From Lactiplantibacillus pingfangensis (GTDB lineage Bacteria; Bacillota; Bacilli; Lactobacillales; Lactobacillaceae), in contig NZ_BJDG01000009.1 in NCBI RefSeq assembly GCF_005404945.1, positions 1 to 64,000 of the forward strand: a DNA stretch of 64,000 nucleotides, written 5' to 3'. Shown here piece after piece: positions 7,024 through 34,106 of the stretch. Position 1 is the first letter of the stretch. Each line of letters starts with the position of its first letter. Position numbers and translations under genes: made by a program. The notes beneath the pieces were generated by a model that worked only from the letters and a program-made list of their open reading frames with translations, did not search any database and was not told the DNA's origin.

Positions 7024-8985
7024 ATGAAATCATTAGTTGCCGGTGTGATTGCGCATGTTGATGCCGGAAAAACGACCCTTTCAGAAGCGTTACTTTATCG
7101 GACGGGGATGTTGCAGCAATTAGGACGTGTGGATAATGGGGATGCTTTCTTGGATCCCGATGATTTGGAAAAACAGCGCGGAATCACGATTTTTTCTCAT
7201 CAGGCCAGCTTTAAAACACCAACCCTTGCCATGACACTCTTGGATACGCCGGGACATGTGGATTTTGCGAGCCAAACTGAACAAGTGTTAAGTGTCCTCG
7301 ATTATGCCATTTTAGTGGTTTCAGCGACCGATGGCATTCAGGGCTATACGCGGACGCTTTGGCGATTATTGGCACGTTACCATGTGCCGGTGTTCATTTT
7401 TGTGAACAAAATGGATATTGCCGGTACGGCGACTGAACAAGTTTTAGCCCAACTACAAGCGAGTCTTTCCGATCAATGTGTGGCGTTTGATGCTGGTGAG
7501 CTGTCTGCGGAAACCTATGAGGCGATGGCGCTGCAAGATGATGACTTGCTGGATGATTTTTTGACTAACGGCAAGTTAGCCGATACGACGGTACAACGCT
7601 TAATTCAGCAGCGAGCGGTTTTTCCTTGTTACTTTGGCTCAGCACTAAAAGTGGCTGGCGTGGACGGTCTAATTGCGGGTCTTGAACGCTGGACGATTGA
7701 GCCAACGTACCCGACTGAGTTCGGTGCCCGCGTTTTCAAAATTTCGACGGCTGCGTCTGGTGAACGACTAACTTGGCTACGACTTACGGGTGGGCAATTA
7801 GTCAATAAGGCCGTTATTTTAAACGAGCAAAAGGTTAACCAAATTCGGGTCTACAATGGTGAAAAATTTAAAATTTGTCCCGAAAGCCATGCTGGTGACG
7901 TGTGTGCAATTCCGGGATTAACCGACACTTATCCCGGCCAAGGGTTAGGAGCCTTAGCAGATGAAAAAAAGCCAGTGATGCAACCAGTATTAACGTATCG
8001 GCTAGATCCAAATGGTCATGATCTACAGGCTTGTTTGGCGGCCATGCGTCAATTAGAAGATGAAGATCCTCAGCTCAAAGTGACTTGGTCCAGCCAATTG
8101 CAAGAACTCCGTGTCCAGATTATGGGGACAATTCAGCTGGAAGTTTTGACGCAACTATTGGCCGAGCGCTTTCAATTAGCGGTTAAGTTTATTGAGGGCA
8201 GTATCCTCTATCAAGAGACGGTGACACAAGCTATCGAAGGCGTTGGCCATTTCGAGCCATTACGACATTATTCTGAAGTTCATTTGTTGCTACAACCGGC
8301 ACCCCGCGGGAGTGGGCTGACGGTTGAAACTGACTGTTCTTTGGAAGTCTTAGGTAAGAATTGGCAACATCAAGTTTTATCAAATTTACAAGCCAAAACG
8401 CAACTAGGTGTGTTGACTGGGTCACCATTAACTGATGTCAAAATCACATTGGTCGGCGGTCGAGCAAGCAACGTTCACTCGGTTGGGGGCGATTTCCGTG
8501 AGGCAACTTGGCGGGCGGTTCGGCAAGGCTTGATGATGTTAAAACAAGTCAATGGTTGTCAGTTGTTAGAACCTTGGTATCAGTTTCGTTTGATAGTCGG
8601 TCAGGATCAAATGGGGCGTGCAATGACGGATGTTCAGCGGATGCATGGTCAGTTTGAGCCGCCAGTGACTGATGCGGCCGGTGTTACGACCTTGACTGGG
8701 ACGGCGCCAGTTTCTGAAATGCAAGGCTATGCGCAGGTCGTTCGGGCCTACACCCATGGTCAGGGTCAATTGGCAGTTGTGATTGATGGTTATCGGCCTT
8801 GCCATGATCAACCTGCTGTCTTGGCGGCACAGCCTTACGATCCTGTCAGTGATTTGGAAAATACTCCCGATTCCGTTTTTTGTGCGCATGGTGCTGGGTA
8901 TCCGGTGCCATGGGATCAAGTCCCAAGTATGGCTCATTTTCCATATGTGTACAGTGCGTCACAACTTGAAAGCCTAAATTCCTAA
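7024..8985 (+). CDS. TetM/EF-G-like translational GTPase
   Basis: 653-aa GTPase of the EF-G/ribosomal protection family. The G-domain motifs are intact: AHVDAGKTT (G1), RGITI (G2), DTPGHVDF (G3), NKMD (G4). Domain II, III, IV and V segments follow in order, with IMGTIQLEVL and LLEPWYQF typical of the Tet subgroup. The domain-IV loop that reads SPVSTPADF in TetM, which contacts the tetracycline site, is HSVGGDF here, so drug resistance should not be assumed. The C-terminus carries DSVFCAHGAGYPVPWDQV, seen in chromosomal TetM-like proteins. RBS AAAAGGGGGGG. It is the last gene of the operon that starts at 4850. A role in freeing stalled ribosomes is possible. Confidence 0.88.
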   Translation: MKSLVAGVIAHVDAGKTTLSEALLYRTGMLQQLGRVDNGDAFLDPDDLEKQRGITIFSHQASFKTPTLAMTLLDTPGHVDFASQTEQVLSVLDYAILVVSATDGIQGYTRTLWRLLARYHVPVFIFVNKMDIAGTATEQVLAQLQASLSDQCVAFDAGELSAETYEAMALQDDDLLDDFLTNGKLADTTVQRLIQQRAVFPCYFGSALKVAGVDGLIAGLERWTIEPTYPTEFGARVFKISTAASGERLTWLRLTGGQLVNKAVILNEQKVNQIRVYNGEKFKICPESHAGDVCAIPGLTDTYPGQGLGALADEKKPVMQPVLTYRLDPNGHDLQACLAAMRQLEDEDPQLKVTWSSQLQELRVQIMGTIQLEVLTQLLAERFQLAVKFIEGSILYQETVTQAIEGVGHFEPLRHYSEVHLLLQPAPRGSGLTVETDCSLEVLGKNWQHQVLSNLQAKTQLGVLTGSPLTDVKITLVGGRASNVHSVGGDFREATWRAVRQGLMMLKQVNGCQLLEPWYQFRLIVGQDQMGRAMTDVQRMHGQFEPPVTDAAGVTTLTGTAPVSEMQGYAQVVRAYTHGQGQLAVVIDGYRPCHDQPAVLAAQPYDPVSDLENTPDSVFCAHGAGYPVPWDQVPSMAHFPYVYSASQLESLNS

Positions 8986-9168
8986 AAATCGAGTCTGGGA
9001 CAAAACCCCAGACTCTTTTTGTAACTCCAAATATTAATAGCCGAAACGTGGAACAAAAGACACGGATGCAACAGAGCTACGAAAACTGAACGATTGAAAG
9101 CCCCAATCATCCGGTTTCCTAGGCTATGCTCGGTGGCAAACCGCCTTTTGTCCCACTCTCGATTTTTT
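8984..9168. repeat. 180-nt structured repeat, copy A
   Basis: Starts at the stop codon of the GTPase gene. The ends are mutually complementary (AAAAATCGAG ... CTCGATTTTTT, with GGGACAAAA pairing to TTTTGTCCC inside). A small terminator hairpin (GAGTCTGGG ... CCCAGACTC then TTTTT) lies at its 5' end, and an inner stem AACGATTG / CAATCAT near 9089-9110. Copy B at 17397-17593 is almost identical over the core. It acts at least as a terminator between two convergent genes; it may also be a structured RNA. Confidence 0.85.
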
Positions 9169-9613
9169 ATAATGGATACACGACATGGAATCGCTCAAGC
9201 ACCATTTTGGCCGTTGCTGGATCGAATACTTGGCCCGCTGCCGCATATTCTTGGCTGAAAAAGGCGTCATGGACTTTGCGCCAATAAGCATAACTCCGGT
9301 CACCTTCTCCTTCATGGTAAGCATGATCAGCACCCACTTTTGCGTAAGGTGTAATCGTCACGGTATCATTTTTAGTGACGCAAATTGGGATATTTTTAGC
9401 ATTAAAAATGACATCGTAGGCCCCAACTTGTGGTAAGGGCTCGTCGGTTTCATATAAGTCATAAGCACTAGTTGTGGCGGTCTTGGTACCTGTTAAGACC
9501 AATTGTGCCAACGTATCTGGATCAGCACCGAACTGGTACGAACTTTGTAGCGGCGTCTCTACAGGTAATTTTAGCGCGATTTTTGCTTGTTTAAAGAAGT
9601 TTTCTGGATTCAT
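9167..9613 (-). CDS. ASCH domain protein
   Basis: 148-aa protein with the ASCH (PUA-like, RNA-binding) fold. The signature GTKTATTSAY is at about residues 40-49, followed by the strand pattern PQVGAYDVIF and ending MVLERFHVVYPL. The family includes tRNA- or modified-nucleoside-acting proteins such as the YqfB amidohydrolases, but this member has no known substrate. The ATG at 9613 is preferred over longer readings because GGGAGG lies 8 bp upstream; the longer version would overlap the ParB-like site at 9653. Its stop codon touches the structured repeat. Confidence 0.85.
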   Translation of the reverse strand: MNPENFFKQAKIALKLPVETPLQSSYQFGADPDTLAQLVLTGTKTATTSAYDLYETDEPLPQVGAYDVIFNAKNIPICVTKNDTVTITPYAKVGADHAYHEGEGDRSYAYWRKVHDAFFSQEYAAAGQVFDPATAKMVLERFHVVYPL

Positions 9614-9652
9614 TTTAGTGCCTCCCATCGTTGAAATAAGTATACGGCAAAA

Positions 9653-9668
9653 TGTTTCACATGAAACA
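9653..9668. promoter_or_regulatory. parS-like site, one mismatch
   Basis: TGTTTCACATGAAACA differs from the parS consensus only at the central CG step (A for G). Degenerate sites of this kind are bound by ParB in Bacillus. It lies in the region shared by the ASCH gene and the alcohol dehydrogenase gene. Confidence 0.7.
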
Positions 9669-9688
9669 GCATTAATTTGGGAACACGC

Positions 9689-9719
9689 TTGCCTTGAAGT
9701 GGACTTCAAGGCGTAGACT
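9689..9719 (+). promoter_or_regulatory. MerR-type promoter with perfect palindrome in a 19-bp spacer
   Basis: TTGCCT (9689-9694) and TAGACT (9714-9719) are 19 bp apart. The spacer holds a perfect 10-bp inverted repeat, GCCTTGAAGT / ACTTCAAGGC with 2 nt between (9691-9712). Long spacers with a central palindrome are the hallmark of promoters twisted by MerR-family activators. It points toward the alcohol dehydrogenase at 9804. Confidence 0.6.
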
Positions 9720-9744
9720 GGTCATTGTAAATAAAGTTTCTTTT

Positions 9745-9774
9745 CTCGACGAGTTGAAGTTAACTCGCTACAAT
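9745..9774 (+). promoter_or_regulatory. Second palindrome-containing promoter of the alcohol dehydrogenase gene
   Basis: CTCGAC (9745-9750) and TACAAT (9769-9774), 18 bp apart, enclose GAGTTGAAGTTAACTC, an imperfect palindrome resembling MerR/SoxR-class operators. Just upstream of the dehydrogenase start. The -35 match is weak. Confidence 0.45.
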
Positions 9775-9803
9775 TAATTTAATTAAACATGGAGATGATC
9801 TTG

Positions 9804-10844
9804 ATGAAAACAGCAGTATTTGTTGAACCAGGAAAAATGGTCGTACAGGAGTTACCAAAAGCACAAGTGAAACAGCCAACTGACGTGGTATTGAAAATTG
9901 TCCGCGCCTGCGTCTGCGGTTCAGATCTTTGGTGGTATCGTGGCATTTCAAAACGCCAAGCCAATAGTCCGGTTGGGCATGAAGCCATTGGAATCGTGGA
10001 ATCCGTTGGCGCTGCGGTAAAAAATGTGAAGCCAGGTGACTTTGTGATTGCACCGTTCACGCATGGTTGTGGCCATTGTGCAGCGTGCTTGGCGGGCTTT
10101 GACGGTGATTGCCTAAATAAAACAGATGATGAAATTGTTGGCTATCAAGGGGAATACTTGCGTTTCAAAAATGCGGACTGGGCTTTAGTTAAAGTTCCAG
10201 GACAACCGGCTGATTATACCGATGCCCAATTAAATGACTTGTTAGCTTTGTCAGATGTGATGGCAACGGGTTATCATGCAGCAGCGAGCGCAGAAGTTAA
10301 AGCTGGTGATACTGTCGTGGTCATGGGTGACGGCGCGGTTGGACTGTGTGGTGTCATTGCCGCTAAACTACTAGGTGCGACGCGAATTATTGCCATGAGT
10401 CGGCATGCTGATCGCCAAGCCTTAGCTAAAGAATTCGGGGCCACAGATATTATTGCTGAACGTGGTGATGAGGCGGTCAAAAAGGTGCAAGAGTTAACGG
10501 ACGGCGCCGGAGCAGACGCAGTTTTGGAATGTGTTGGGACCGCATTGTCGGTTGATACTGCAATCAAAGTTGGGCGTCCGGGTGCGGTAGTCGGTCGCGT
10601 CGGCGTGCCACAAAAGGCCGAAATGAATACGAATGAGTTATTCTGGCGAAATATCGGTCTACGAGGTGGGATTGCTTCTGTCACAACCGATGACCGCAAA
10701 GTACTGTTAGATGCCGTTTTAAAGGGTGATATTCATCCTGGCAAAGTCTTCACGCAACGTTTCAGTTTGGATGAGATCCAAGCCGCATATGAAGCGATGG
10801 ATCAACGCCGGGCAATTAAATCATTGTTAGTGATTAGTGATTAG
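9804..10844 (+). CDS. Zinc-dependent alcohol dehydrogenase family protein
   Basis: 346-aa medium-chain dehydrogenase. The catalytic zinc cysteine is in CVCGSDLWWYRG, followed by GHEAIGIVESVG. Structural zinc cysteines are in CGHCAACLAGFDGDC, and the NAD(P)-binding GDGAVGLCGV motif is near residue 175. It interconverts alcohols and aldehydes or ketones; the exact substrate cannot be read. The ATG at 9804 is chosen since GGAG sits 9 bp upstream; an ATG at 9789 precedes that site. Two palindrome-bearing promoters upstream suggest induction by a MerR-family regulator encoded elsewhere, since none lies in this window. Monocistronic, with its own terminator. Confidence 0.9.
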   Translation: MKTAVFVEPGKMVVQELPKAQVKQPTDVVLKIVRACVCGSDLWWYRGISKRQANSPVGHEAIGIVESVGAAVKNVKPGDFVIAPFTHGCGHCAACLAGFDGDCLNKTDDEIVGYQGEYLRFKNADWALVKVPGQPADYTDAQLNDLLALSDVMATGYHAAASAEVKAGDTVVVMGDGAVGLCGVIAAKLLGATRIIAMSRHADRQALAKEFGATDIIAERGDEAVKKVQELTDGAGADAVLECVGTALSVDTAIKVGRPGAVVGRVGVPQKAEMNTNELFWRNIGLRGGIASVTTDDRKVLLDAVLKGDIHPGKVFTQRFSLDEIQAAYEAMDQRRAIKSLLVISD

Positions 10845-10848
10845 TGCT

Positions 10849-10877
10849 AAAAAGGCTGGCAGTTGCCAGTCTTTTTT
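10849..10877. terminator. Bidirectional terminator
   Basis: AAAAAGGCTGGCA / TGCCAGTCTTTTT with a 2-nt turn, between the convergent dehydrogenase and yaaA genes. Confidence 0.85.
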
Positions 10878-11622
10878 AGTCGATATGAATAAAGACTAAT
10901 TTTGTCGGCGTTGAGCGCTGGTCATCGAATTGATAGTGCGGATGATCAAAATATTTAAGCTTTGATAATTCAGTTATCTGATTTTCAGCTAAGAAACGTA
11001 CCATGGCACCACGAGCCATTTTAGCTAAAGTTGCCTTGGTCTTCAATTGACCGTCAACTAGGCTGGCAAAAACGACGGTAACAAATGGTTGTGTCGCGTT
11101 TAAATAAGGTCGGATACTTTTAGCGTATTCTTGCGAAGCTAAATTGAGGATTGGCTCAGTTGGTGCCGCAAGGGCTTGATAGAGGCGGTCTCCCCAAAAG
11201 TCATACAAGTTCTGACTAGTTCCCACCGTGAGTTTGGCTTGCATTTCCAAACGGTAGGGGACAACGCCGTCAAATGGCCGAAGGATGCCATAGAAACCGG
11301 ATAGAATTCGCAAGTTATGTTGAATGTATGTTAGACCGGCGTCAGTTAATAGATCGGGGACCATGTATTGGTATTGGATGCCGCTGTAACTTAGAATTGC
11401 TGGCGTTAAGTGACGCGTCAGATCAAGTTCTTGCAACCAAGCATAGTTCGGCTGTGCCAGCTTATCACTACAATGCCATAATTGCTTGGCTTCGTTGTAT
11501 GAGAGTTGTCGTAGTCGTGTCAAAAGTTGTTTGGTTTGATTGAGATAGTCGGGGTTGCCCTGACTATCAAACGTGTCGGTGTCAACGACCATCTTTTTAG
11601 CTGGCGCAATAATGATTTTCAT
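10876..11622 (-). CDS. yaaA: YaaA family peroxide stress protein
   Basis: 248-aa YaaA/DUF328 protein, which in Escherichia coli limits free iron and oxidative DNA damage during peroxide stress and carries a DNA-binding fold. Recognised by MKIIIAPAKKM at the start, AILSYSGIQYQ (about 80-90), RILSGFYGILRPFDGVVPYRLEM (about 110-132) and YDFWGDRLYQAL. The ATG at 11622 gives the canonical N-terminus; an upstream ATG at 11640 adds six residues and cannot be excluded. Convergent with the alcohol dehydrogenase and divergent from the aminopeptidase. Confidence 0.9.
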   Translation of the reverse strand: MKIIIAPAKKMVVDTDTFDSQGNPDYLNQTKQLLTRLRQLSYNEAKQLWHCSDKLAQPNYAWLQELDLTRHLTPAILSYSGIQYQYMVPDLLTDAGLTYIQHNLRILSGFYGILRPFDGVVPYRLEMQAKLTVGTSQNLYDFWGDRLYQALAAPTEPILNLASQEYAKSIRPYLNATQPFVTVVFASLVDGQLKTKATLAKMARGAMVRFLAENQITELSKLKYFDHPHYQFDDQRSTPTKLVFIHID

Positions 11623-11721
11623 ACAGACAACTTCTTTCATCAGGGATTATTATGATTAGCTTAGCATAATATGCTGAATTGTAATAAAGTAGGTTTAATC
11701 AAAAATAAAAGGGATGAGGGC

Positions 11722-12621
11722 ATGAAAATTCAAACCGGGGCAATGCCGTTTCGAGGCTACCAGACTTACTATCGCATTATGGGGGATCTAACTAGCACGT
11801 TGACCCCATTACTGCTGTTACATGGCGGCCCAGGGTCAACACATAATTATTTTGAAGTTTTTGATCAATTTGTTGCCCAAACAGGCCGGCCAGTCGTGAT
11901 GTACGACCAAATTGGTTGCGGGTTGTCGTCTATCCCAGATGATCCCAGCTTATGGCAGGCGACGACATGGTTGTCTGAGTTACAGGCGTTGCGTGATTAC
12001 TTAAGTTTGACTAAAGTTCATTTGCTCGGTCAATCCTGGGGCGGGATGCTGGCAATTAGTTACTTGTGCGACGAGCAACCACGAGGTATTCAGAGTCTAA
12101 TTTTAGCGAGTACCTTATCCTCGGCAAAATTATGGGCACAAGAGCAACATCGTTTGATTAAACTGATGCCAGCTGCTGAGCAGGCGGCGATTGCGCAAGC
12201 TGAAGCAACTGGTGATTTTACCACCGCGGCCTATTTAGCGGCCAATGCACACTTTATGATGTTACACGCCACTGGACCACTCACGGCTGATTCACCTGAA
12301 TTTTTACGCCGACCGAAAAAGGCTGGAACGGTCGCTTATGAAACGGCTTGGGGACCGAATGAATATTGCCCAACCGGAACCCTTCGCGAATTTGACTATA
12401 CGGCACAGTTAGCCCAAATTAAGCTGCCGACATTAGTGACTAGTGGTGTCAACGATTTATGTACACCGCTGATTGCGAAAACCATGGTGGATCAGTTACC
12501 GCACGCCAGTTGGCGGTTATTTGCCCATAGCAGACATATGGCGTTTATTGATGAAACTTCAGCTTATTTTGACCAGTTAACGACTTGGTTGACGGCCCAT
12601 GATTACGAGGAGGATAAATAA
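11722..12621 (+). CDS. pepI: Prolyl aminopeptidase (proline iminopeptidase)
   Basis: 299-aa alpha/beta hydrolase of the S33 peptidase family that removes N-terminal proline from peptides in the cytoplasm. It has the oxyanion motif HGGPGSTHNYF, the nucleophile elbow GQSWGG (about residue 106), the late Asp in VTSGVNDLCTP and the His in SRHMAF. Start at 11722 follows GGGATGAGGG; longer readings lack a good site. In proteolytic LAB this enzyme completes casein- or plant-peptide use. Its stop overlaps the ATG of a now broken acetyltransferase gene (TAATG), so the two were once co-translated. Confidence 0.92.
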   Translation: MKIQTGAMPFRGYQTYYRIMGDLTSTLTPLLLLHGGPGSTHNYFEVFDQFVAQTGRPVVMYDQIGCGLSSIPDDPSLWQATTWLSELQALRDYLSLTKVHLLGQSWGGMLAISYLCDEQPRGIQSLILASTLSSAKLWAQEQHRLIKLMPAAEQAAIAQAEATGDFTTAAYLAANAHFMMLHATGPLTADSPEFLRRPKKAGTVAYETAWGPNEYCPTGTLREFDYTAQLAQIKLPTLVTSGVNDLCTPLIAKTMVDQLPHASWRLFAHSRHMAFIDETSAYFDQLTTWLTAHDYEEDK

Positions 12622-12849
12622 TGGTCAAAACTCATTTTGCCAAGTTATCAAAACCGTGGTTATGCGCAGCTAATGTTACGGTCGTTAGAAACCCATTTTC
12701 CAGCTGTCAATTGTTGGCAGTTGGACACGATTGCTGAAGAAGCTAAACTAGTCCAGTTATACCAACACGCTGGTTATACGCAATTAGGTCAATATTGTGA
12801 TGAAATTCAGCCACAAATGCATCTCATTTATTTTGAAAAACGGTTATAA
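12621..12849 (+). pseudogene. GNAT acetyltransferase remnant
   Basis: The original start is still visible: AGGAGG and an ATG at 12621 overlapping the pepI stop codon. After a few codons the frame is lost, and only the C-terminal half of a GNAT domain remains, in a different frame (12637-12849): SYQNRGYAQLML is the acetyl-CoA-binding Q/R-x-x-G-x-A/G motif and YQHAGYTQLGQY is the last strand region. An internal deletion with frameshift removed the N-terminal strands. Not expected to be active. Confidence 0.8.
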
Positions 12850-12850
12850 A

Positions 12851-12887
12851 AAAAGGCCATCCGACGCAGTTACGTCGGGTGGTCTTC
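12851..12887. terminator. Bidirectional terminator
   Basis: AAGGCCATCCGACG / CGTCGGGTGGTCTT around a 6-nt loop; A-run upstream on plus serves as T-run on minus. Confidence 0.82.
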
Positions 12888-12888
12888 T

Positions 12889-12945
12889 TGATGAGGTGCG
12901 GTGACCTTCTGAACGCTTGCGCGCCGATCACGTACCCTCATCATG
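12889..12945. other. Additional structured region between convergent genes
   Basis: GATGAGG (12890) pairs with CCTCATC (12938), with inner GGTGA / TCAC pairing, forming a two-step hairpin of about 55 nt next to the terminator. No T-run. No second copy seen in the window. Function unknown. Confidence 0.4.
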
Positions 12946-13003
12946 GTTTGGCACCGAGAGTATTATCGCATGGCGCGTCTGTGTCGTCAATTGAAAGTTA
13001 AAT

Positions 13004-14041
13004 TTAATCGGCTTTGACGATTCCAAGGTCAATCATTGATTGCGCGGTCGCGACAATCGCAGTCTCAGCTGATCTTGGCTGCCAATTGAGCATCGAAACG
13101 GCTTTAGCATTGCTGGTTTCGGCGTAAACGCCCAATAAACTGGCCACCATTCGTAACATGGGATCGGCCAGTGCGGCGACCTTGATGAGTGGATCAGGAA
13201 TGATCTTGGTTGGCAACTTGGCTGCGAAGTCGGGAAAATGGTGTCGTAAGATCGTTGCCACTTCTAGCATTGAAAGGGTCTCACCAGTTGTGGCTAGAAA
13301 ACGTTCGCCAGCAGCCTGCGGGGCAGTCATGGCAAGTAAATGTAGGCTTGCCACATCGCGGACATCAACGTAACCAGAGTCAACGCGCGGGACAGCTTTA
13401 AGTTGACCAGCCAGTAATTGCTGAATTTGGTTATTTGAATGAGAATAATCTGCTGATAGGACGGGACCCATGACAGCCACAGGATTAACCGTGGCGAGTG
13501 TCATACCGTGACCTTCGCGAGCAATAAAGTCCCAAGCAGCATGTTCTGCCAATGTTTTAGACTTTTGATAGGGATGAATATTTTTAGCAGCTAAGTTTGA
13601 CCAGTCTCTTTCAGTGTAAGGGGTGTCCCGGTGTTTGTGGCCGGCGAAGACTGCGCCATAGGCCGATGTTAAGACGACACGTTTCACTTTAGCATCGCGC
13701 GCGGCCGTCAAAACTCGGACAACGCCATCAACGGCCGGTCGGATCATTTCGGATTCATTTTTAAAATTTAAGGTGGGCGTTGGCGAGGCCACATGAATGA
13801 CGTAAGTTGCACCTTGCATGACAGCAGCCCAGCCATGATCATGGGTTAAATCAGCCTCAACGAAATCAAGATTGGTAAAGTCGGTTAAGCCACCAGTTGT
13901 CAACATTTCCTTAATCAAATTGATCTTTTTTAGTGAGCGGACCGTTGTTCGGACCCGATACCCTTGTTTCAGTAATTGCAAAATAATATGAATCGCAATA
14001 AAACCACTCCCGCCGGTAACGACGACTAATTCCTTCTTCAT
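13004..14041 (-). CDS. NAD(P)-dependent epimerase/dehydratase-family reductase
   Basis: 345-aa extended short-chain reductase close to dihydroflavonol-4-reductase/aldehyde reductase types. GGSGFIAIHI is the dinucleotide motif (the usual third Gly is Ala), VIHVASPTP the substrate region, and the catalytic Ser-Tyr-Lys is in LTSAYGAVF plus PYQKSKTLAEHAAW. Likely reduces carbonyl compounds with NADPH; the substrate is not readable. RBS GGAGG. It is divergent from a TetR-type repressor gene with an operator-like palindrome between them, so it is probably the repressor target. Confidence 0.88.
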   Translation of the reverse strand: MKKELVVVTGGSGFIAIHIILQLLKQGYRVRTTVRSLKKINLIKEMLTTGGLTDFTNLDFVEADLTHDHGWAAVMQGATYVIHVASPTPTLNFKNESEMIRPAVDGVVRVLTAARDAKVKRVVLTSAYGAVFAGHKHRDTPYTERDWSNLAAKNIHPYQKSKTLAEHAAWDFIAREGHGMTLATVNPVAVMGPVLSADYSHSNNQIQQLLAGQLKAVPRVDSGYVDVRDVASLHLLAMTAPQAAGERFLATTGETLSMLEVATILRHHFPDFAAKLPTKIIPDPLIKVAALADPMLRMVASLLGVYAETSNAKAVSMLNWQPRSAETAIVATAQSMIDLGIVKAD

Positions 14042-14064
14042 GTAAAAGTTCCTCCAGTTCTATA

Positions 14065-14078
14065 GTTACACTTGTAAC
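14065..14078. promoter_or_regulatory. Palindromic operator between reductase and TetR genes
   Basis: GTTACACTTGTAAC: perfect 6-bp arms with 2-nt centre, 24 bp upstream of the reductase start. It is a good candidate for the binding site of the TetR-type protein encoded at 14159. Confidence 0.55.
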
Positions 14079-14158
14079 GTGTGTGGAGATAGCTTACAAT
14101 GGGTTTCACTAATAAACAAGCGATATTGCGGCATCTGTGACAGAAAGGTGGAATTGTT

Positions 14159-14731
14159 ATGGCAGCAACGCAACATGCGCAGCTAATTAAGCAGGATTCA
14201 CGCGATTATTTGACCACAGCCTTGTTACAATTACTAGAGACGCACGATTTGGCGACCATTACGGTAACCCAAGTCGTTAAGCGCGCTGGGGTAAGTCGGA
14301 TGGCTTTTTATCGAAATTTTACGACACTATCAGATGTTTTGACGGCTTATTTTGATCCTTTGATTGCGGCACGATTTGCAGATGTTCAACAACAGCTGCC
14401 GGTTGCGGATAAATTAATGGCGATTAGTGGCTTCTTTTCGACACAAGCTGAGGTATTGAAATTATCTGTTGAACGCGGATTTGAGGCAATTATTCGACAG
14501 TGTTTCGATCAGCAGATGTTGCATTTTTATGCTGATTTGGTATTACCAATGACCTTAACGACAGCACAACGACAGTACTGGATGAAGTTTATGAGTGCCG
14601 GGGTGTATGCCATTTGGCGAGAATGGTTGTTTAATGGACAGCGGGAACCGTTGACAGAGATTCATGATTTAATTGGTGGCTTTCAAACTGCGACCTTGCA
14701 AGCCTTGACCGTGGGGACGGACGGTGTTTGA
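14159..14731 (+). CDS. TetR/AcrR-family transcriptional regulator
   Basis: 190 aa. The N-terminal helix-turn-helix (about 15-62) reads TITVTQVVKRAGVSRMAFYRNFTTLSDVLTAYF, the standard TetR DNA-binding region. The C-terminal half is an all-helical ligand domain ending in a TetR_C-like MKFMSAGVYAIWREWLFNGQ segment, as in the DhaS-like group. RBS GAAAGGTGG. Divergent from the reductase at 13004; likely its repressor, with an unknown small-molecule inducer. Confidence 0.9.
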   Translation: MAATQHAQLIKQDSRDYLTTALLQLLETHDLATITVTQVVKRAGVSRMAFYRNFTTLSDVLTAYFDPLIAARFADVQQQLPVADKLMAISGFFSTQAEVLKLSVERGFEAIIRQCFDQQMLHFYADLVLPMTLTTAQRQYWMKFMSAGVYAIWREWLFNGQREPLTEIHDLIGGFQTATLQALTVGTDGV

Positions 14732-14798
14732 AGAAAGCAATCGGTGGTGCGACTTTCCAGTTGTTACGGCCATTCAGCATGACTCACGTGATCGAGAT

Positions 14799-14812
14799 AT
14801 TTCCCGGGGAAT
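14799..14812. promoter_or_regulatory. Noc-site-like sequence, one mismatch
   Basis: ATTTCCCGGGGAAT differs at one base from the Noc-binding consensus ATTTCCCGGGAAAT. It lies in the 292-bp region before the teichoic acid genes, which otherwise contains no supported gene. Confidence 0.45.
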
Positions 14813-15023
14813 AGTGGCCAACGTTGTTGGTAATAGTAAGTAGTGATATTATCTAAGGAAGGATTGGGAAAGACTGGCCTTTTTAGCCATTGATGGTTAA
14901 TGTCACCGGCGCCAAGGATTTTGACTGTCTTTCTCAGAGCGTTTACTGACGTCTTTGTAGGTTTAAAAAGTTTGATTGTAAAGATTAAGACAAAGATCAC
15001 ATCAAGTAGAGGATTGTTTATAA

Positions 15024-17384
15024 ATGAAAAAGATTGCGATTTTAGGGTTTAATGTTTTTGCACCAGGGGGAACATCCCGAAGTAATATTAATTTATTGGA
15101 AGAGTTTGGTCGTGCCGGTTATCAGATTACCTTTTTTAATTTTAGACAGTTTACGCGGCGAGATTTGCGAAAATTAAAAAAAGAAAACCCCACTGTAACA
15201 GATGTTGAGTTCTTATACATTTCCGAACTAGAAACACATGTTGATTTCGATTACTTCTTTATTACGCGGGAAAGCTTTTTCTGTGTGGCGCCATATATTC
15301 GGGCTAACAGCAATGCCATCATTGTTGGTGAAATTCATACGCCATTGGCATTGATCGAAGAAACCGATTTAACCGATTACTTACAATATTTCAGTTGCGT
15401 ACGAGTTGCCACTGAGTCGATTAAGGCTGAAATCGTGCGGCGCTTCCATTTTGATCGGGTTTATGTTCAAACAGTTAGTCTAGAACATATCGCTAACGAG
15501 CAAGCAACGTTTGATCCTGAAATTGTGGATGAAAATGGCAATGTCAATTTGATTGTCCGGTCCCGATTTGATCATGAAAAAGATATCTCGGCAATTATCA
15601 AATTACTGGATTACATGATTCATTATCTACATCATGACGAGTTTCGGTTTTATATTACTGGCTATGGTCCTAGTGGCACGATGTATCACAATTTAGTCAG
15701 CTTCTATGGGCTTGATGATTATGTTTTCTTCAATAGTAAGCAGGTTCCTGATCGTCATATTTACGTGTCGACCTCGTTCTATGAAACGTTTGGTTACTCA
15801 ATTGTGGAAGAATTTGCGAGTGGCCACCCAGTCATTGCTTATCCAGGGAACGACAATGTGACGCGTGAGAATTTTGGGGCGTTTAAGGATGTGCTCTGGA
15901 TTAAGAAAGATCCAGAGATTGATGCGCCTAAAATTTTAGCGTTCATTAAGCAGCCACGGACCGAAGCTGATTATCACTATAATCTTGAGCAAATTGCCAA
16001 AAAGAAGCAGCATTACGTGACGAACTTTGAAGCAACGACTGCGAAGTTCAAACAAAATGTTGGTCAGGTTGATGATCAGGCGGTTACCTATGATCAAATG
16101 TGGGAAGTCATTCAGAAACGGACTAAATTTGATGGCATGCGTCGTTTCCGTCGACTTTATTACAAAGTACGTAAGGTGCCGGCAGTTGGGGCAATTGTTC
16201 AACAAGATTGGATTCGAGTGCCTTCAATGCGGTTACTCAGTAAATTGGTTGGTGAAACACCAGATTTCACGTCTGAGGAACCGATTGATGAAAATAAATT
16301 TTTCATTGAGTCCTTTCACGGTAGTAACTTGTCTGGCGATCCTAAATATTTTGCGCTTGAAATCAAGCGGCAGAATCCGGATGCAGAAATTTTCGTCAGC
16401 TCTCGTAATCAACTTGTCGATATGGAAATTCTGGCCAACGGTTTTACACCAATTCGGGTCGGAAGTCTGCGATATATCGAAAAATTCCAGGAATGTAAGT
16501 ATGTCTTCATTAATGGGAATAGTCTCGATAAGGCCGGTAAACGGGATGGACAAGTCTTTATTCAAACTTGGCATGGTTTTCCAATGAAGCAAATGGTCAA
16601 TGATTTAGCGGATGATGCGCAGCGGACGAAGGAATCCGAAGCCTTTGCGCCACGGATGCAGAAATGGGACTATTTAACGACCTCTTCAGCTTACAATGTT
16701 CAATTGCTCAAGTCTGCGTTTCGTTTGGATGATAATGCTGAGTTAACTGTATTTGATAATGGGACGCCTAAGAACGACTATTTGTTAAAAAATATCGATA
16801 GCACGTCTGAAAAGCAACGTATTTTTGAAAAGTACTTTAACCGACCTTACGATGCGACCAAGAAAATTGTGTTGTTCTGTCCAACTTGGCGTAAAGGCAA
16901 ACGGAAAGATGTTTCTGATCTTGATTTACAAGCCGTTATCCAGGCATTGCCAGATGATTATTTGATGATTGTTAAGCTACATCCGTTGGAGAGTCACTTA
17001 CGGCAACAATATGCTGATCTTGATCCTCGGATTTTCTGTTTCTACAATGAATTAGTGGATATTCAAGAACTTTACCTGTTGTCTGATTTGCTAATTTCTG
17101 ACTATTCTTCGGCCATTTTTGATTATTCGTTACTCAATAAGCCAATTGTCATTATGCAAGAAGATGAAGCAGATTATGCCCAAAATATCGGTTGGTATTT
17201 CAGTATCGAAGATAAAGTTGGCTTACATGCCGATAATTATGATACGGCCGGGCTCGTTCAGGCTATTTTAACGGCGCCAGATACGAGTGCGTCTTCACGT
17301 TTGATCAAAGAACGGCTATTGACCAATGAGCATGTGGGGTCAACTGCAGAGTCGCTTAAAATTATTATGTCAAAATCTAAGTAA
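15024..17384 (+). CDS. Fused GT4 glycosyltransferase / CDP-glycerol glycerophosphotransferase
   Basis: 786-aa two-domain cytoplasmic, membrane-associated enzyme for wall teichoic acid. Residues about 1-370 form a GT4-type glycosyltransferase ending in ETFGYSIVEEFASGHPVIAY (the E-x7-E donor motif). Residues about 430-786 form a TagF/TagB-like glycerophosphotransferase: QTWHGFPMKQM with the catalytic His, VLFCPTWRKGK, VKLHPLES and LISDYSSAIFDY. The first domain likely adds hexose and the second polymerises or attaches glycerol phosphate from CDP-glycerol. The TagD gene at 19674 would supply the donor. RBS AGAGGA. Followed by structured repeat copy B. Confidence 0.9.
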   Translation: MKKIAILGFNVFAPGGTSRSNINLLEEFGRAGYQITFFNFRQFTRRDLRKLKKENPTVTDVEFLYISELETHVDFDYFFITRESFFCVAPYIRANSNAIIVGEIHTPLALIEETDLTDYLQYFSCVRVATESIKAEIVRRFHFDRVYVQTVSLEHIANEQATFDPEIVDENGNVNLIVRSRFDHEKDISAIIKLLDYMIHYLHHDEFRFYITGYGPSGTMYHNLVSFYGLDDYVFFNSKQVPDRHIYVSTSFYETFGYSIVEEFASGHPVIAYPGNDNVTRENFGAFKDVLWIKKDPEIDAPKILAFIKQPRTEADYHYNLEQIAKKKQHYVTNFEATTAKFKQNVGQVDDQAVTYDQMWEVIQKRTKFDGMRRFRRLYYKVRKVPAVGAIVQQDWIRVPSMRLLSKLVGETPDFTSEEPIDENKFFIESFHGSNLSGDPKYFALEIKRQNPDAEIFVSSRNQLVDMEILANGFTPIRVGSLRYIEKFQECKYVFINGNSLDKAGKRDGQVFIQTWHGFPMKQMVNDLADDAQRTKESEAFAPRMQKWDYLTTSSAYNVQLLKSAFRLDDNAELTVFDNGTPKNDYLLKNIDSTSEKQRIFEKYFNRPYDATKKIVLFCPTWRKGKRKDVSDLDLQAVIQALPDDYLMIVKLHPLESHLRQQYADLDPRIFCFYNELVDIQELYLLSDLLISDYSSAIFDYSLLNKPIVIMQEDEADYAQNIGWYFSIEDKVGLHADNYDTAGLVQAILTAPDTSASSRLIKERLLTNEHVGSTAESLKIIMSKSK

Positions 17385-17396
17385 GACAATTTTTTC

Positions 17397-17593
17397 AATC
17401 TGTTATTGAGTCTGGGACAAACCCCCAGACTCTTTTTGTAACTCCGAATATTAATAGCCGAAACGTGGAACAAAAGGCTGCAACCTCCGCTTAGCTACGG
17501 AAACCGAACGATTGAAAGCCCCAATCATTCGGTTTCCTAGGCTATGCTCGGTGGCAAACCGCCTTTTGTCCCACTCTCGATAACAGATTTTTT
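17397..17593. repeat. 180-nt structured repeat, copy B
   Basis: Same core as copy A at 8984-9168, for example AATATTAATAGCCGAAACGT and TAGGCTATGCTCGGTGGCAA. Its outer stem is different in sequence but still complementary: AATCTGTTATTGAG (17397-17410) pairs with CTCGATAACAGATT (17576-17589), followed by a T-run. Inner stem AACCGAACGATTG / CAATCATTCGGTT. This change on both sides with pairing kept supports a real RNA structure that ends as an intrinsic terminator. Confidence 0.85.
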
Positions 17594-24256: not shown

Positions 24257-24271
24257 TGGGGTAAGTTAATA

Positions 24272-24376
24272 AACACTAGGGGTGTCCACAGATGGGCTGA
24301 GATGGTAATGTGCGTGCTAATCCCTTTGAACCTGTGAGTTCAGACTCGCGTAGGGAAAGTGTCGAGATGCTGTAAA
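24272..24376 (+). ncRNA. TPP riboswitch (THI element)
   Basis: Carries the conserved thi-box blocks in order: ACTAGGGGTGTCC, GGGCTGAGATGG, ATCCCTTTGAACCTGT and CGTAGGGAAAGTGT. It senses thiamine pyrophosphate and turns off thiM-thiD-thiE expression when thiamine is plentiful. A hairpin at 24381-24419 followed by TTTTTA is its likely terminator. Confidence 0.93.
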
Positions 24377-33590: not shown

Positions 33591-33633
33591 AGCATGCCGC
33601 AAAAGGGTGTTAGCTGCCTTTTGCGACATGTTT
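33591..33633. terminator. Bidirectional terminator
   Basis: GCATGCCGCAAAAGG / CCTTTTGCGACATGT with flanking A- and T-runs, between the convergent HIRAN and NUDIX genes. Confidence 0.82.
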
Positions 33634-33641
33634 CGGTTTAG

Positions 33642-34106
33642 CTATTCGGAGCGGTTTTTCAGAAACGCTTTGGCTGCAACTAACGTGTCTGCGGTTTGTT
33701 GGTTGAGTAATGGTGGTAACTGATCGAAGTCAAAATATGCGAGCTTCAAGGTTTCATCAGTGGCGGTTTGTAACGGTTGGCCACCAACAGCTTCGACTAA
33801 GAATAGTTCAGTAATTGTTTGCACAACGTCGCCATTTGGATAGATGGTTTCACCTTGGTCAAAGATACCAATCGGTGCAATGACTTTAACGTCGATACCG
33901 CTATCTTCCTTATATTCACGCACACAGGCGGTTGCATACGATTCACCGTATTCCAAATAACCGCCGGGAAGGCTCCAGTTATGCGTATCTGTTCTGAGAT
34001 TTAACAACACTTGTTGTTGATCGTTAACTAAAATACCTGCTGCTGTATTTAAAATTAACGGTTTGTGACCGACTAATGCGCGTAATTCTTTGATATAGTT
34101 TGCCAT
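33642..34106 (-). CDS. NUDIX hydrolase
   Basis: 154-aa pyrophosphohydrolase of the MutT/NUDIX superfamily. The NUDIX box begins at GGYLEYGESYATACVREY and continues KEDSGIDV (about residues 43-68); the second of the two metal-binding acidic residues of the usual EE pair is Asp. Metal-dependent hydrolysis of nucleoside diphosphate derivatives is expected; the substrate cannot be read. Start at 34106, with GTGAGG upstream. The domain N-terminal to the box begins LNTAAGILVNDQQQVLLNLR. Confidence 0.9.
   Translation of the reverse strand: MANYIKELRALVGHKPLILNTAAGILVNDQQQVLLNLRTDTHNWSLPGGYLEYGESYATACVREYKEDSGIDVKVIAPIGIFDQGETIYPNGDVVQTITELFLVEAVGGQPLQTATDETLKLAYFDFDQLPPLLNQQTADTLVAAKAFLKNRSE

Follow-up and report, generated by a model that had tools for sequence, protein, structure and literature searches.

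The Enterococcus faecalis repeats (EFAR), said to have been described by Venditti et al. in 2007, reportedly insert into unrelated stem-loops, parts of the target stems being kept at their termini. REP sequences and REPINs, which go with RAYT transposases, are many-copy chromosomal palindromes without any gene of their own, and group IIC introns are large ribozymes which target intrinsic terminators and insert after the hairpin. The BOX and RUP repeats are intergenic and structured, and are similar in size to the element dealt with here. In PMC2267715, the type I repeat Efa-1 is given as a pair of adjacent stem-loops of 163 bp, present in 65 copies, and BOX and RUP of Streptococcus pneumoniae are named in a table. 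We analyzed a structured repeat occurring twice in the first 64,000 nucleotides (forward strand) of contig NZ_BJDG01000009.1 of Lactiplantibacillus pingfangensis (assembly GCF_005404945.1), a stretch called the window below. The two copies are likely to be non-coding palindromic mobile DNA of about 168 bp, namely a miniature element of the EFAR kind, inserted in the hairpins of intrinsic terminators.

By analogy of architecture and behaviour, the element fits the EFAR/Efa-1 kind. It is of the same order of size (163-170 bp), intergenic and present in many copies (51 places in the genome, 18 of the 21 aligned copies being 167-171 bp long). It likewise consists of two adjacent stem-loops, a small 5' hairpin (P1) and the core hairpin, P1 being strong (z below -2 just 5' of the core) in only 24 of 35 diverse copies. 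Use of a stem-loop as the target, with the stem partly kept, is a trait reportedly shared with EFAR; it is seen here at window copy 1, at the loci L007 and L022 of the same genome, on the right side of a third locus, L012, and on one flank of window copy 2. The differences are that the present element was followed, with covariation, over the Lactobacillaceae, some further families of the same order and a single family beyond that order, and that its targets are identified here as intrinsic terminators. It resembles REP and REPINs in being a many-copy palindrome with no gene of its own, but it is much longer, has internal motifs and shows no dependence on a Y1 gene. The likeness to BOX and RUP, compared by description alone, is that of intergenic structured repeats of similar size. 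Group IIC introns are set apart likewise by description, since the present element is about 168 bp long and replaces the hairpin tip. In the literature searched, where the relevant records were PMC1590033 and PMC2267715, no report was found of terminator targets established via unoccupied sites, of covariation across families, of Watson-Crick arms or of unbiased orientation.

The features of the two copies are listed below, H1 to H4 being the helices of the core and G002 the genome of a related species. A4 is a MAFFT alignment of 25 copies from many Lactobacillaceae genera, drawn from 57 matches; opposite-strand shadows, second copies, the f2, f5 and f9 families and the loci L094, L163, L170 and L029 were left out.

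8984..8990, copy 1, AAAAATC, apparent remainder of the target stem on the left side (basis: unoccupied terminator in G002)
8991..9159, + strand, element copy 1, from GAGT to ACTCT
8991..9015, + strand, copy 1, small 5' hairpin P1, terminator-like, GAGTCTGGGACAAAACCCCAGACTC, followed by TTTTT
9015..9158, + strand, copy 1, core (covariance-model match), H2-less subfamily
9161..9167, copy 1, GATTTTT, apparent remainder of the target stem on the right side (basis: unoccupied terminator in G002)
17397..17406, copy 2, AATCTGTTAT, apparent remainder of the target stem on the left side (basis: similar basal stem in G002, left flank aligned only)
17408..17577, + strand, element copy 2, from GAGT to ACTCT
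17408..17432, + strand, copy 2, small 5' hairpin P1, followed by TTTTT
17465..17478, + strand, copy 2, 5' arm of helix H1, GTGGAACAAAAGGC, with conserved CGAAAC just before it (A4 columns 34-47)
17479..17484, + strand, copy 2, 5' arm of helix H2 (A4 columns 48-53)
17489..17537, + strand, copy 2, 5' side of H3 and apical hairpin H4, 17499-17514 pairing with 17522-17537 (A4 columns 58-110)
17551..17556, + strand, copy 2, 3' arm of helix H2, with conserved ATGCTC just before it (A4 columns 126-131)
17561..17574, + strand, copy 2, 3' arm of helix H1, overlapping conserved CACTC at the element end (A4 columns 136-149)
17580..17589, copy 2, ATAACAGATT, apparent remainder of the target stem on the right side (basis: similar basal stem in G002, left flank aligned only)

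The preliminary description of this DNA had reported two related structured repeats sharing a core, each close behind a stop codon, and both statements hold. The cores are 89% identical, and their folding energies lie beyond those of 200 shuffles (copy 1, z of -4.77; copy 2, z of -10.07); the left remnant of copy 1 overlaps the TAA (8983-8985) of the upstream gene, and the frame upstream of copy 2 ends at 17384. The outer arms occupy 8984-8993 and 9158-9167 in copy 1, and 17397-17410 and 17576-17589 in copy 2. No family of Rfam 15 matches the element at gathering score.

These outer arms differ in sequence from one copy to the other and still pair in each. The pairing is present in both window copies, but the compensatory selection on one closed RNA which had been read into it is not upheld by the unoccupied sites. 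Unoccupied relatives were sought at nine sites, of which copy 1, copy 2, L007, L022 and L012 were informative; the relative could be aligned on both sides at four of them and on the left side only at copy 2, and a terminator lies at the junction in all five. At the site of copy 1, G002 lacks the element and carries an ordinary intrinsic terminator, CCTAAAAAATCAGGTCAGCTTTTAAAAGTTGGCCTGATTTTTTATAG, instead: the junction reads CCTAAAAAATCAGG...CCTGATTTTTTATAG in G002 and CCTAAAAATC, element, GATTTTTTATAA in the window, the base of the terminator stem being kept and its tip replaced. L007 shows the same pattern against G002 (GCGCCGATCA.../...TGATTGGCGTTTTTGC), and at L022 AAA/TTT and the right flank are kept. 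At L012, compared with G010, G002 and G001, the right junction keeps the T run; the left side has diverged, so that only the right one is clear. At copy 2, the terminator of G002 has a basal stem, AATCTG/CAGATT, and a T run matching the outer arms of the window, as far as the left flank alone can tell. L004 could be aligned on the left flank only and L026 on the right flank only, with a terminator hairpin nearby in each case. Judging from these alignments, the outer stems are the basal arms of unrelated target terminators and not the product of compensatory evolution; as remnants of the targets, they give no evidence for a two-state RNA switch.

Sites are filled in one species and free in another, and there are many copies per genome. 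In 22 copies of the source genome, the flanks pair with a mean energy of -6.18 kcal/mol, versus -4.56 kcal/mol when permuted (7 of 10000 permutations); the flanks of many single copies pair no better than chance, which means that copies can do without a closed outer stem. Where copy 1 lies, G001 carries an element with another outer stem. G010 has about 500 bases of other sequence there, perhaps a short gene, together with a different terminator (G010:C1:310346-310986; L101, 900-1540).

Inside the element, 92.5% of the 1045 cells of A4 are paired, versus 64.0% in shuffles, although the helices were set by eye on A4 itself, which favours them; when the partners are slid along the alignment as a control, pairing falls to 32.5-40.6%. 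Changes on both sides occur in 36 of the 42 pairs, and there are 276 double-change cells where shuffling gives 76.2. A5, a model-fitted alignment that leans to structure, holds 22 matches (20 loci) belonging to further families of Bacilli; of its 882 cells, 83.2% are paired. One conserved inner fold, with strong covariation in the homologues, is thus borne out as it had been proposed. The fixed motifs are AAACGTG at the start of H1, TCCGCTTA, ATGCTC, AACCG and the terminal CACTC; they are more variable in the distant families.

The kind of covariation is informative, since an RNA helix tolerates G-U pairs and a DNA palindrome has no reason to do so. Only 21 of the 967 standard pairs in A4 (2.2%) are G-U, 14 of them in one column pair, without which 7 are left, fewer than the 68 mismatches. 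The signal recognition particle (SRP) RNA served as a control, with its own consensus, in 30 genomes of the same family (30 of 41 matches): 115 of its 703 standard pairs (16.4%) are G-U, with 43 mismatches. The contrast has a Fisher p of 6e-21, the conserved T-G column pair having been dropped from the element's side after being seen. In the distant families, there are 14 G-U pairs in 734 standard pairs, with 148 mismatches. This scarcity is our best argument that the form selected or renewed is a DNA palindrome rather than an RNA, and the almost purely Watson-Crick pairing read from the alignments points in that direction.

The source genome (2.9 Mb, 59 contigs) holds many further copies, as do related genomes, in answer to a check proposed earlier. 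In the source genome, blastn gave 34 matches, and the covariance model R1, built from 23 core copies, gave 72 rows, that is, 51 distinct places once 21 opposite-strand shadows had been dropped; 27 of these places score at least 100 bits. Thirty loci of this genome were fetched, 21 of which are aligned in A1 and 23 in A2. Under R2, the model from A4, copy 1 scores 88 bits and copy 2 150.8 bits. A weak R2 match in the window (33592-33661, - strand, 21.9 bits, E 0.0035) is perhaps a shrunken relic of the element. Short head-to-tail arrays occur at G000:C16:8002-8287, G000:C3:15358-15593 and G016:C12:119900-120431, and also among the copies in G738 and G912.

A core-motif search returned 15 stretches, all in Lactiplantibacillus species (12 in herbarum and 1 each in nangangensis, mudanjiangensis and fabifermentans). 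R1 matches all 21 genomes of the genus. Among 301 Lactobacillaceae genomes, under stricter filters and with ten candidates scored in each, it matches 108, which represent 18 of 40 genera; among 295 genomes of the order, it matches 18, of which six come from families outside the Lactobacillaceae. R2, for which seven candidates were scored in each genome, matches 5 of 398 genomes of the class, including the source genome; of the other four, one belongs to the same order and three to the family f17 outside it, where a similar skeleton recurs, partly in tandem. Plasmids searched by DNA gave no match for the window type or for the L139, L083, L048 and L243 queries, a search which diverged copies would escape; the L130 query gave one match, a 592-kb Aerococcus record. 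The L163 subfamily has a copy on six Ligilactobacillus salivarius plasmids, with about 92% identity over 67% of the query (e.g., NC_006530.1, 36917-37054), perhaps a sign of recent transfer between genera. No match was found in phages with two DNA queries or in viral contigs with one exact pattern, searches which diverged copies would likewise escape.

The position of the copies relative to genes was counted at 26 of the 30 loci of the source genome (L027-L030 were left out). The 3' end of a gene (open frame of at least 100 amino acids) faces 23 of the 26 copies, within 65 bases in 22 of these 23, and lies to the left of the copy in 15 cases and to the right in 15 (both in 7); 2 of the 26 copies also lie inside a mechanical open frame. 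Such an absence of orientation bias is hard to square with an RNA made in one fixed sense; taken with the scarcity of G-U pairs, it suggests a DNA hairpin or cruciform. The location at gene 3' ends is what would be expected if the element had a putative host role at mRNA 3' ends, as a terminator or stabilizer of upstream transcripts, but the two orientations are equally common. We regard this role as a tentative addition to the mobile-element explanation, not as a replacement for it.

As to how such a mobile element would work, the comparison of occupied with unoccupied sites shows that it replaces the tip of the terminator hairpin, the basal stem and the A/T runs remaining on both sides. The unit kept would be a long DNA hairpin, in which the H1, H2 and H4 arms change in matched Watson-Crick steps while the motifs stay fixed. 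A recombinase acting in trans could bind these motifs on the extruded or single-stranded hairpin and exchange it with the target hairpin, so that the extruded element would swap places with the tip of the terminator. The small 5' hairpin and its T run probably restore termination for genes transcribed in the same direction as the element, and insertions would then be harmless. More speculatively, the element may belong to a long-standing class of mobile DNA palindromes in Bacilli, spread by hairpin-for-hairpin exchange via a chromosomal recombinase, with arms renewed as exact Watson-Crick complements as the lineages diverge.

It is also conceivable, though rather unlikely, that no dedicated enzyme is involved and that hairpins are exchanged by template switching at forks stalled on palindromes, a process which would also keep the arms complementary. 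The Watson-Crick covariation, the hairpin-for-hairpin insertion and the lack of a partner gene in the five regions examined would all agree with this; the motifs that stay fixed in distant families, however, suggest recognition by something.

The mobile element might otherwise be REPIN-like, a Y1 (HUH) transposase (RAYT or IS200/IS605 TnpA) acting on the single-stranded hairpin. It does consist of hairpin units with fixed motifs, and PF01797 is weakly enriched, being present in 43 of 108 element-bearing genomes as against 50 of 193 others (p 0.014). The source genome has one such gene, but 65 of the 108 element-bearing genomes have none, among them G007, G010, G004 and G012, in which the model gave 48 to 107 rows per genome (per-genome row counts include opposite-strand shadows), and we consider a Y1 partner improbable. 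The IS110 transposase (PF01548), of which the source genome has one, is missing from the element-rich genomes G007, G009, G012, G017 and G005 of the genus. Both transposases were rejected as obligate partners, since they are missing from element-rich genomes.

An RNA switch, by which transcription either stops at the small hairpin or yields a closed, folded RNA of 180 nt, had been proposed from the two window copies, where both structures are possible and the small hairpin resembles a terminator. Over 35 diverse copies, the competing pairing of the P1 5'-side region with the element's 3' end is hardly above permutation (-9.14 versus -8.46, 263 of 5000), while the core arm pairs with that end at -17.74 versus -8.68 (0 of 5000), a comparison biased towards the core arm, which was part of the model used to find the copies. 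Together with the unbiased orientation, the flank pairing, the outer stems that are target remnants and the scarcity of G-U pairs, this led us to drop the switch with its two exclusive structures as the principal explanation, and we give it very little credence. At L005 (G000:C5:78568-78712), an unrelated GC-rich terminator-like hairpin replaces GAGTCTGG..., and to go by this locus the 5' module may be exchangeable. IS1111 members do enter hairpins, a target structure resembling that of the element, but derivation from IS110/IS1111 (a DEDD transposase with a bridge RNA) is very improbable, given the element-rich genomes lacking PF01548 and G-U pairs scarcer than expected of a guide RNA.

Several observations weigh against the interpretation of the repeat as a terminator-seeking mobile element. 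In the five regions inspected (L202, L204, L205, L207 and L209), which hold close or partial copies, neither a recombinase nor an autonomous copy came to light; their open frames look ordinary, as judged from the open-frame listing with no family search and no genome-wide search by ends. Usable comparisons are missing at four of the nine sites (L004, L026, L018 and L015): at L018, the G002, G001 and G003 sequences align too far from the junction for a target to be assigned, and L015 was left unread. The relatives belong to other species, with flanks about 66-87% identical, which blurs the details of the junctions. No target site duplication could be seen by eye when copy 1, L007 and L022 were compared with their unoccupied counterparts; this also distinguishes the element from classical miniature inverted-repeat transposable elements, with which it shares the lack of coding capacity and, in window copy 1, inverted ends (GAGTCTGGGACAAAA / TTTTGTCCCACTC), the ends being different in other subfamilies. 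The G-U contrast relies on a single control RNA and on copies picked by a covariance model, and it is weaker within the source genome, where 33 of 702 standard pairs are G-U, 17 of them in one column pair, the rest giving 16 G-U pairs versus 26 mismatches. H2 is absent in 14 of the 21 copies of A1, including window copy 1, the 5' side of H2/H3 being swapped for a ACGGATGCAACAGAGC-like sequence. Several of these H2-less copies reach as much as 95% identity with copy 1, from which it follows that spread does not require H2; to judge from this identity, they probably spread recently.

If the two window copies are indeed such insertions, the apparent compensatory evolution of an RNA would be the scar of insertion into terminators, which constitutes a trap for covariation-based RNA discovery, and the share of G-U pairs could serve as a cheap test for telling DNA palindromes from RNAs. 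A terminator-seeking element present in several families of one order also raises the concrete question of its enzyme.

Upstream of copy 1, the window carries the gene of an EF-G-like translational GTPase of 653 amino acids (7024-8985; Pfam GTP_EFTU, EFG_C and EFG_IV), and the DNA of the 3' part of this gene matches all 21 genomes of the genus. The window's only Rfam match at gathering score is a thiamine pyrophosphate (TPP) riboswitch (RF00059, 63 bits) at 24268-24374.

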